Source: Lentisphaeria bacterium
GTDB taxonomy: Bacteria; Verrucomicrobiota; Lentisphaeria; Victivallales; UBA1829
Length of the DNA: 34,270 nt
Assembly: GCA_017524965.1 (NCBI GenBank)
Contig: JAFXUM010000004.1
Span: 1-34,270, forward strand
Reading direction: 5' to 3'
In this document: positions 31,154-32,918 of the stretch, one piece after another
Layout: each line of letters opens with the position of its first letter
Numbering within the stretch: position 1 is the stretch's first letter
The notes under the pieces: model-generated
Told to the model about the DNA's origin: nothing
Database searches by the model: none
The model's input: only the letters and a program-made list of their open reading frames with translations
Translations under genes and position numbers: made by a program

Positions 31154-31792
31154 TTATTTCCGTCCGGAGGCGCGAAGCCAGCGGTGTTCCGGCTCGAATT
31201 CGGCCGTCACGTCCGCGAATCCCGCCTCCAGCAACAGCCCGCGCAGTTCCTCCAGATTCGGACAGCGCATCTTCAGATGCTCCACGATCGCGAGCTGGCG
31301 TTCGTTCATCGCGCCGCCCGCCATTTCCAGCGCGGTCGCGAAATATCCGCCGGGGGCGAGCACGCGCCGTATCTCGCGCAGTCCGGCGGCCTGATCCGGC
31401 CAGAAATACAGGCTCTCGACCGAGATCACGGTGTCGAACGCGCCGTCCGCGAACGGCAGATCGGGCACGCCGCATTGTAAAAAACGCATCCGTCCGGCTT
31501 TCACGAAATCTTCGTTCAGCGCCGTCGCCGTCTCGACCGCGAGCGGGGAGATGTCGCATCCGGTCAGCTCGGATTCGGGGTATTGTTCCGACAGTTCGCG
31601 CAGCGCCGCGCCCGCGCCGCACCCCACGTCCAGCACGGACTGGCCGACGGGGATGTGCGCGAATCCCCACGCCCGGAGCGGGCCGTGTTCGCGGTTCATG
31701 CGGAGGATCATGTCGCGGCCCGCGTCGCCCGCGGGGCATCCTGCCGTTTCGACGTTCGAGAAATCCGGTTCGGTCATGTCGTATGGTCCCAT
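31154..31792 (-). CDS. Class I SAM-dependent methyltransferase
   Basis: 212 residues from 31792 (MGPYDMTEP); an in-frame ATG at 31777 is an equally possible start, and neither has a clear ribosome site. Motif I is SVLDVGCGAGAAL (about residue 53), motif II the acidic strand end ELTGCDIS, motif post-II LPFADGAFDTVISVESLYFW, and motif III RRVLAPGGYF. This is the Methyltransf_11 pattern of UbiE-like small-molecule methyltransferases; the Asp-rich and Trp-containing SVESLYFWPD segment is typical. The substrate cannot be told. It has its own promoter (31823-31851) and converges on the membrane-protein gene with a 28-base gap that lacks a visible terminator. Confidence 0.9.
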   Translation of the reverse strand: MGPYDMTEPDFSNVETAGCPAGDAGRDMILRMNREHGPLRAWGFAHIPVGQSVLDVGCGAGAALRELSEQYPESELTGCDISPLAVETATALNEDFVKAGRMRFLQCGVPDLPFADGAFDTVISVESLYFWPDQAAGLREIRRVLAPGGYFATALEMAGGAMNERQLAIVEHLKMRCPNLEELRGLLLEAGFADVTAEFEPEHRWLRASGRK

Positions 31793-31851: not shown

Positions 31852-31902
31852 GGGCGGAAGCGGAAAAACCGTGTTTTTGACGTGTTTTTTTCGGAATCGC
31901 GT

Positions 31903-31930
31903 TTGAAAAAACGTGGAAATGTGCTATCTT
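31903..31930 (+). promoter_or_regulatory. Promoter of the small basic protein and lpxA
   Basis: TTGAAA (31903-31908) and TATCTT (31925-31930) with a 16-base spacer. Upstream T-tracts occur in the repeat GTGTTTTTGAC-GTGTTTTTTTC (31871-31892), spaced about one helical turn, as in UP elements of strong promoters. Confidence 0.65.
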
Positions 31931-31983
31931 TTATGGATATATTTTTGTACACGAACCAAATCCAACAATCATGGAGAACCACA

Positions 31984-32091
31984 ATGGGAAGACAGTATAA
32001 CAAGCACGAGAAACAGGCCCGCCGCAAACAGTACCTCAAGCGCGTCAAACTCCGCGTGAAAGAGGCGATCAAGGCCGCCAAGAAGAAATAA
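31984..32091 (+). CDS. 35-residue very basic protein upstream of lpxA
   Basis: The start at 31984 (MGRQYNKHEKQARRKQYLKR) is fixed by GGAG 8 bases upstream and by a strong promoter whose transcription start lies after all earlier in-frame ATGs except one at the very 5' end. About half of the residues are Lys or Arg and the C-terminus is IKAAKKK. The composition and probable high expression resemble small ribosomal or nucleoid proteins. PVC bacteria are known to carry small basic proteins of about this size, but I cannot name a family for this one, and it is not ribosomal protein S20 or L34 by sequence. It is probably co-transcribed with lpxA, 29 bases downstream. Confidence 0.75.
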   Translation: MGRQYNKHEKQARRKQYLKRVKLRVKEAIKAAKKK

Positions 32092-32120: not shown

Positions 32121-32918
32121 ATGGCGCAGATCCACCAGACCGCCATCATCGGAAACGACGTCGAGCTTGCCGATTCCGTTTTCGTCGGCCCGTACTGCAT
32201 CATCGAAGACCACGTGAAGATCGGCGGGAACACCCGCCTGATCGCGCAGTGCCACATCTACTCGAACACCACGATCGGCGCGGGCAACACCATTTTCCCG
32301 TTCGCCACGCTCGGCGGTCCCCCGAACGACGTCAGCTACGACCCGACGCAGGAATCCTACACCCGGATCGGCGACGACAACATCATCCGCGAGGGCTGCT
32401 CCATCCACAGGGGCGCGCATCCCGGCACCACGACCGTCGTCGGAAGCCACTGCTTCCTCATGGGCAATTCGCACATGGCGCACAACACCGTGATCGGCGA
32501 CCACGTCATCATGGCGCTCGGCGCCCTCGCCGCGGGCTACGTCCAGATCGGCGACCGCGCGTTCATCTCCGGCAACACCTGCATCCACCAGTTCGTCCGC
32601 GTGGGCCGCTACGCCATGCTCTCCGGCGGTTCCGCCATCTCGATGGACCTGCCGCCCTTCATGATCGGCGACGGCCGCAACGGCGGCGTCCGCAGCTTCA
32701 ACAAGGTCGCGCTGGAGCGTGCCGGATACTCCAAAGAAGACATCCGCACCATCCACAAGATGTACGACATCGCGTTCCGCCGCGGCCTCAACATGAAGAA
32801 CGCGCTGGAAGAGATCGAAATCACTCTGCCGCAGATCCCGGAAGTCAAGGAATTCGTCGAATTCGTGCGCTCCGCGAAACGCGGCGTCCTGAGCGGGGGC
32901 AGCACCCGCCGCGCATAA
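32121..32918 (+). CDS. lpxA: Acyl-ACP--UDP-N-acetylglucosamine O-acyltransferase
   Basis: 265 residues, close to the 262 of E. coli LpxA. It moves an R-3-hydroxyacyl chain from ACP to the 3-OH of UDP-GlcNAc, the first step of lipid A synthesis, in the cytosol at the inner membrane. The left-handed beta-helix shows as hexapeptide repeats (IIGNDVELADSVFVG; IGAGNTIFP). The family motifs are FPFATLGGPPND, IREGCSIHRG and MGNSHMAHNTVIGD, where His118 and His121 match E. coli His122 and the catalytic His125. The C-terminal helices follow (VRSFNKVALERAGYSKEDI), then a short tail (SGGSTRRA). It marks the organism as an LPS-making diderm. The usual neighbours lpxD, fabZ and lpxB are absent; instead it follows a tiny basic protein. 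No strong ribosome site. Confidence 0.96.
   Translation: MAQIHQTAIIGNDVELADSVFVGPYCIIEDHVKIGGNTRLIAQCHIYSNTTIGAGNTIFPFATLGGPPNDVSYDPTQESYTRIGDDNIIREGCSIHRGAHPGTTTVVGSHCFLMGNSHMAHNTVIGDHVIMALGALAAGYVQIGDRAFISGNTCIHQFVRVGRYAMLSGGSAISMDLPPFMIGDGRNGGVRSFNKVALERAGYSKEDIRTIHKMYDIAFRRGLNMKNALEEIEITLPQIPEVKEFVEFVRSAKRGVLSGGSTRRA

Follow-up and report, generated by a model that had tools for sequence, protein, structure and literature searches.

A short basic protein widespread in Verrucomicrobiota and a proposed place for it in the ribosome

Some ribosomal proteins are very short, basic and specific to particular lineages; bL37 is one of these, and its occurrence over phyla is patchy. In an extract from PMC3353972, Thx and S22 are likewise very short, basic and patchily distributed over phyla, and Thx is described there as a central helix set into 16S rRNA. 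CT421.2, a signature protein of the PVC group and the closest published idea that we found for the gene described here, appears in an extract from PMC7203096 as a small RNA-binding protein that possibly replaces L30. The gene described here lies in a 34,270-nucleotide stretch of DNA from a Lentisphaeria bacterium (the window, by which we mean the whole stretch that was analysed), and its product resembles these proteins in size and charge. The peptide, MGRQYNKHEKQARRKQYLKRVKLRVKEAIKAAKKK, has 35 amino acids, 15 of them Lys or Arg and 2 acidic, with a computed pI of 11.2, in keeping with the extreme Lys/Arg content that an initial annotation of the window had pointed out.

A 35-codon gene and its expression signals

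The length of this ORF is unremarkable (there are 41 ORFs of at least 20 amino acids in 4.3 kb), and it is recognized as a genuine gene because it is conserved, not because it is long. Eight loci of the same genus encode an identical peptide and differ in their DNA only at three third positions, such that the 28 pairs among them hold 26 synonymous and 0 non-synonymous differences, a clear case of purifying selection. Together with homologues throughout the phylum, these synonymous-only changes bear out the initial annotation in its claim of a real and easily overlooked gene. Absence of the peptide from related genomes, which had been named there as the outcome that would count against the idea, was not what we found: the peptide is conserved in them. 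The features of the locus are collected in Table 1.

Table 1. Coordinates of the small basic protein gene, its signals and its neighbours in the window
Feature	Coordinates	Strand	Basis
Class I SAM methyltransferase gene, divergent neighbour	31154..31792	-	Pfam/NCBIfam
Sigma-70-like promoter, TTGAAA-16-TATCTT, TG before the -10	31903..31930	+	Scan, 9/12 matches
Predicted transcript leader, well conserved within the genus	31931..31983	+	Same-genus alignment
Shine-Dalgarno-like GGAG, 7 nt 5' of the ATG	31973..31976	+	Sequence; kept in same-genus loci
Small basic protein gene, 35 aa plus TAA	31984..32091	+	ATG at 31984; family profile, dN/dS
lpxA, 265 aa, downstream neighbour	32121..32918	+	NF003657 and TIGR01852, over cut-off

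The ribosome site that had been proposed is present and kept within the genus (Table 1). Elsewhere, among loci L045-L163, Shine-Dalgarno-like motifs were seen at 15 of 15 Lentisphaeria-named loci, 3 of 33 from Verrucomicrobiia and 3 of 31 from Opitutia. The promoter had been called strong. A scan over 2.6 kb returned 2 sites against 0.8 (sd 0.8) in shuffled sequences, which as a count alone is weak; of 9 loci compared, the 7 from the same genus that contain the stretch and align over it preserve the hexamers and their spacing, with TATTTT as a variant in L007 (L128 lacks upstream DNA and L016 could not be aligned). The promoter is thus better supported by conservation than by the number of sites, and while its presence stands, its strength is unproven. 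The only Rfam hit in the predicted leader, mir-2833, scored 21.6 bits where the gathering score is 65, and a known RNA family was rejected for this stretch.

The gene may also carry a signature like that of highly expressed genes. Across 6 genomes its dS is 0.051 and its dN 0, and in the same genomes uL2 has a dS of 0.064 and a dN of 0.0036, and uS19 a dS of 0.040 and a dN of 0.0057; dS is 0.088 for uL23, 0.187 for LpxA, 0.210 for uL4 and 0.341 for the methyltransferase (six comparison genes in all, uL22 and uS3 having been left out as not found in the stretches). Because uL4 is as fast as LpxA at synonymous sites, the rate argues at best for high expression. Codon choice is nearer to that of uL2, uS19, uL23 and uL4 than to that of its two neighbour genes (resampling p about 0.02, over 35 codons only). 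A synonymous rate and codon choice like those of some ribosomal genes suit the abundant nucleic-acid-binding or ribosome-linked peptide that the initial annotation had suggested, while the role itself is one that we infer.

Sequence and distribution of the family

Most members share the motif MGxQxNKxxKRxRRxxYLxRxK, and conservation is confined to the first 22 residues. Among the 113 distinct sequences in the matches listed for a degenerate DNA pattern, residues on which the pattern placed a loose constraint or none are nearly fixed (Arg13 in 113, Arg14 in 110, Arg20 in 111), and position 11 is Lys or Arg in 111. In diverged members Met-Gly-Gln and the Arg/Lys core remain, while Asn6 and often Tyr17 are gone. 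An AlphaFold2 model of the window peptide (mean pLDDT 94) has residues 1-6 extended and a helix over residues 7-34. The C-terminus is variable, ranging from no tail to a Lys/Ala-rich one and, in one member, a helix-hairpin-helix (HhH) domain: 79 of the 113 distinct members among the matches listed, the window peptide included, have 60 amino acids or fewer, and 30 of the 34 that exceed 60 are Lys/Ala-rich. In L162, a long Lys/Ala linker leads to the HhH domain (PF14520, E 1.4e-10, over cut-off). The whole L162 tail also matches models of L21 (4e-12), phasin (2e-11), NuoE (7e-11) and S2 (3.7e-6), all under cut-off, and since the phasin and NuoE models match about equally, this tail says little for the ribosome.

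A single-sequence search with the window peptide matched 91 of 288 genomes of the phylum at E 0.01. Profile searches, which ran on Verrucomicrobiota genomes only, matched 265 of 387 sampled genomes with a 22-member profile at E 0.1, 249 of 387 with a 90-member profile at E 0.01, and 308 of 387, in 158 of 197 genera, at E 0.01 with a 40-member profile that includes diverged members; this last profile matched 248 of the 310 genomes with a completeness of 90% or more and a contamination of 5% or less. Genomes almost invariably have a single match, G090, G104 and G256 being among those that have two. Behind the 40-member profile lie weak matches at 30 loci, of which 23 were read; 22 of the 23 start with ATG and Met-Gly-Gln, and judged by their sequences these matches are convincing. 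L177 has ATA in place of the ATG start of the other 22 diverged members, possibly an error or an unusual start.

No profile match at E 0.01 was found in 79 of the 387 genomes. A second search of 20 of these, with E up to 10, gave nothing in 12 and weak matches, most of them partial, in 8; the best, in G290 (E 0.013, model positions 2-31), may be real. Retention in reduced genomes was not seen in G036, a 0.9-Mb genome rated 99% complete, which keeps bS20 and bS21 but lacks a match even with E up to 10; the 40-member profile likewise left G057, a genome of that genus and size, unmatched at E 0.01. The protein is therefore dispensable in these two genomes or too diverged there.

In the GTDB species collection, the DNA pattern matched at least 119 stretches. 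By record title, the 119 matches listed comprise 98 from Verrucomicrobiota, 18 from Lentisphaerota and one each that is unnamed, from Omnitrophota and from Planctomycetota; the titles listed include Opitutus, Prosthecobacter, Victivallis, Methylacidiphilum and Akkermansia. Because the accessions of the matches listed come in no visible order, they suggest that the family is restricted to the phylum. The Planctomycetota-named locus L158 and the Omnitrophota-named locus L131 likely come from misnamed bins, since the L158 peptide is identical to that of L104 and both loci have neighbours common to Verrucomicrobiota-named loci; we therefore rejected them as evidence for other phyla. Spread by viruses was also rejected, the pattern having 0 matches in viral contigs.

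We found no above-chance relative of the family in Pfam, NCBIfam or the PDB. The window peptide matched nothing in Pfam or NCBIfam at E up to 1 and, with the limit raised to 10, nothing in the PDB. Each of the four NCBIfam families returned for 90 members was matched by a single member (a ribonuclease P model had the best E, 0.0088, and S30e was at 0.24), and the same held for four Pfam families returned for 40 members (best E 0.022); all are taken as chance. The family profiles matched no ribosomal protein among PDB chains at E up to 10; their other matches were one chain at E 9.8 and, at E 0.12, two chains of CCDC124, a ribosome-bound protein, the latter match being treated as chance. The N-terminal motif strings of the family did not occur in the literature searched, and among the best matches listed no title or abstract start was about this protein.

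Neighbouring genes

The window gene does precede lpxA, as had been described, with the lpxA start 29 nt after its stop (Table 1). Across 159 loci (some duplicated), lpxA lies downstream at 20, namely 16 from the taxonomic family of the window and 4 contigs of a named collection; the 16 were read from among 22 genomes of that family with a 40-member profile match, and all have lpxA. At the other 139 loci, many of which hold 1.5 kb of flank only, lpxA was not found. Since the linkage is confined to these 20 loci, mostly of one taxonomic family, lpxA is a family-level neighbour and not a general partner. A strict scan placed a terminator between the two genes at 8 of the 20 linked loci, and one more, at L011, was seen by eye and missed by that scan. 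The link to envelope synthesis drawn in the initial annotation finds no support in these counts. Within the genus of the window, two scans found no plus-strand terminator between the stop and lpxA, which suggests that lpxA is probably cotranscribed with the peptide gene there. The methyltransferase is beside the peptide gene at 7 of the 159 loci, all from the same genus. The window's genome also holds a second LpxA-type acyltransferase (G000:C3:4733-4975, at L034; PF13720 over cut-off).

Counted within 700 nt, the neighbours at the 159 loci include several genes with a tie to translation: RimO downstream at 16, YacP-NYN downstream at 10, and an RlmI-like methyltransferase that is divergent upstream at 8 and downstream at 1. 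Among 23 diverged members, 8 have tRNA-Cys directly 3' on the same strand (L165, L167, L175, L176, L177, L179, L180 and L184). Neighbours without such a tie are IspF (11 loci), CysK (5) and an OGG-like glycosylase (4); others, named by eye, are M23-peptidase-like (14), transglutaminase-like (21), GFO-type oxidoreductase-like (5) and TIM-barrel-like (6), and two unknown families occur at 25 and 11 of the 159 loci. At 25 of the 159 loci, for example L072 and L099, the divergent upstream neighbour is a conserved gene of unknown function with a SecDF_P1_head match just under cut-off. No ribosomal-protein operon context was seen at the loci examined. In one genome of the same genus (G076:C55:38780-41287), bS20 and the peptide gene share a strand, with bS20 about 2.2 kb upstream. 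The 100 nt past the stop contain a terminator-like site at 67 of 154 loci, compared with 5 of 159 stretches taken 500 to 400 nt upstream, a lenient control in that these stretches are mostly intragenic.

Function and comparison with known proteins

We propose that the peptide is a small protein of the ribosome, integral or permanently bound and lineage-specific to Verrucomicrobiota, a reading to which we give a probability a little below 0.6. It is favored by size, charge, single copy, phylum-wide retention, its own promoter, frequent terminators of its own, translation-gene neighbours, and a fitting dS and codon choice. Three of these, the strong basicity, the single copy and the wide conservation in the lineage (308 of 387 genomes), are traits of the ribosomal class. 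Against the proposal stand the fifth of genomes with no match at E 0.01, G036 included, the solved ribosomal chains among which no match was found, the many neighbours with no tie to translation, and the H1-like tails. In this model the peptide would be made constitutively as part of the ribosome. Its MGxQxNK N-terminus is predicted to be extended and the rest to form one basic helix with conserved Arg and Lys, joined in the main group by Tyr17. Grooves of the rRNA could take up both the extended end and the helix's basic face, and this insertion may stabilize the local rRNA fold as the Thx helix does in 16S rRNA. The C-terminal tail would be free to vary, and lpxA would be no partner. That the family is an undescribed ribosomal protein marking Verrucomicrobiota, with 30-40 amino acids set into rRNA as a hook plus helix, able to bear lineage-specific Lys/Ala or HhH tails, and lost in some lineages, is a more specific proposal that we make tentatively, at slightly worse than even odds; such a protein could have been overlooked because annotation skips genes so short.

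Many members carry Lys/Ala-rich tails, which makes a nucleoid-associated protein the main rival: basic helix and tail together would coat DNA, as in the H1-like HC2. Most of the members over 60 amino acids are of this kind, and tailed L140 weakly matches PF07382 (E 0.00088) and NF038053 (E 2.4e-5), both below cut-off. However, the tail is the variable part of the protein and the shorter members are the majority (79 of the 113 among the matches listed), the conserved first 22 residues match no H1-like model, several gene contexts lean to translation, and ribosomal proteins also carry similar Lys/Ala tails, so we regard a nucleoid role as unlikely. A factor for ribosome assembly, hibernation or rRNA processing, bound to the ribosome only at times, would explain the RimO, RlmI-like and YacP-NYN neighbours and could be read into the chance-level helix match to CCDC124; that match is insignificant, though, the neighbours vary among lineages, and the low rate of synonymous change points to steady high expression, all of which make transient binding rather improbable.

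Two further readings are less likely still. In the genus of the window, the short distance to lpxA, the lack of a terminator between the genes and the conserved leader DNA are what one would expect of a leader peptide controlling lpxA expression. Over the wider set, the peptide gene holds no consistent position before lpxA (not found at 139 of the 159 loci), its amino-acid sequence is conserved phylum-wide, and 8 of the 20 linked loci have a terminator before lpxA; these counts largely refute such a leader, which we now consider very improbable. The peptide is also small, basic and common to the phylum, as would hold for the phylum's own form of TIGR04137/CT421.2 or for a shortened bS20 or bS21. 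We rejected these identities, whose chances are close to nil: TIGR04137 has a separate gene (C218, 52 amino acids) with 0 BLASTP alignment to the peptide and matches 0 of 90 family members, and bS20 and bS21 are encoded elsewhere, in 92 and 94 of 96 genomes, respectively, and in the window's genome on other contigs.

If the ribosomal proposal is right, the ribosomes of most of a phylum, with environmental, gut and rumen members, hold a protein missing from the catalogues searched, and ribosome structures, phylogenetic markers and the annotation of Verrucomicrobiota genomes would need to include it. A nucleoid role, too, would leave a basic protein of wide occurrence for which neither Pfam nor NCBIfam has a model.

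Set against described proteins, the family recalls HC2 (PF07382) and NF038053 in the Lys/Ala-rich tails of some members; it differs in that these models match only a tailed member and under their cut-offs, no H1-like match passing the cut-off, while the conserved core goes unmatched and the window peptide is tailless. With bS20 and bS21 it has in common that they are small basic helical proteins, in their case of the small subunit, and differs in that both are encoded elsewhere in the same genomes. Thx/S31, S22 and bL37 are likewise very short, basic and patchy over phyla, and show no sequence relation to the family (family profiles against ribosomal PDB chains, E up to 10). TIGR04137 (Chlam_Ver_rRNA), which from its name and range we infer to be the same protein as CT421.2, has another sequence and another gene, and according to an extract from PMC3444138, CT421.2 is found also in Chlamydiae and Planctomycetes and has about 53 to over 80 amino acids. 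In being small, basic, lineage-restricted and suspected of a ribosomal or RNA-binding role, as an extract from PMC7203096 presents it, CT421.2/TIGR04137 is nonetheless like the family described here.
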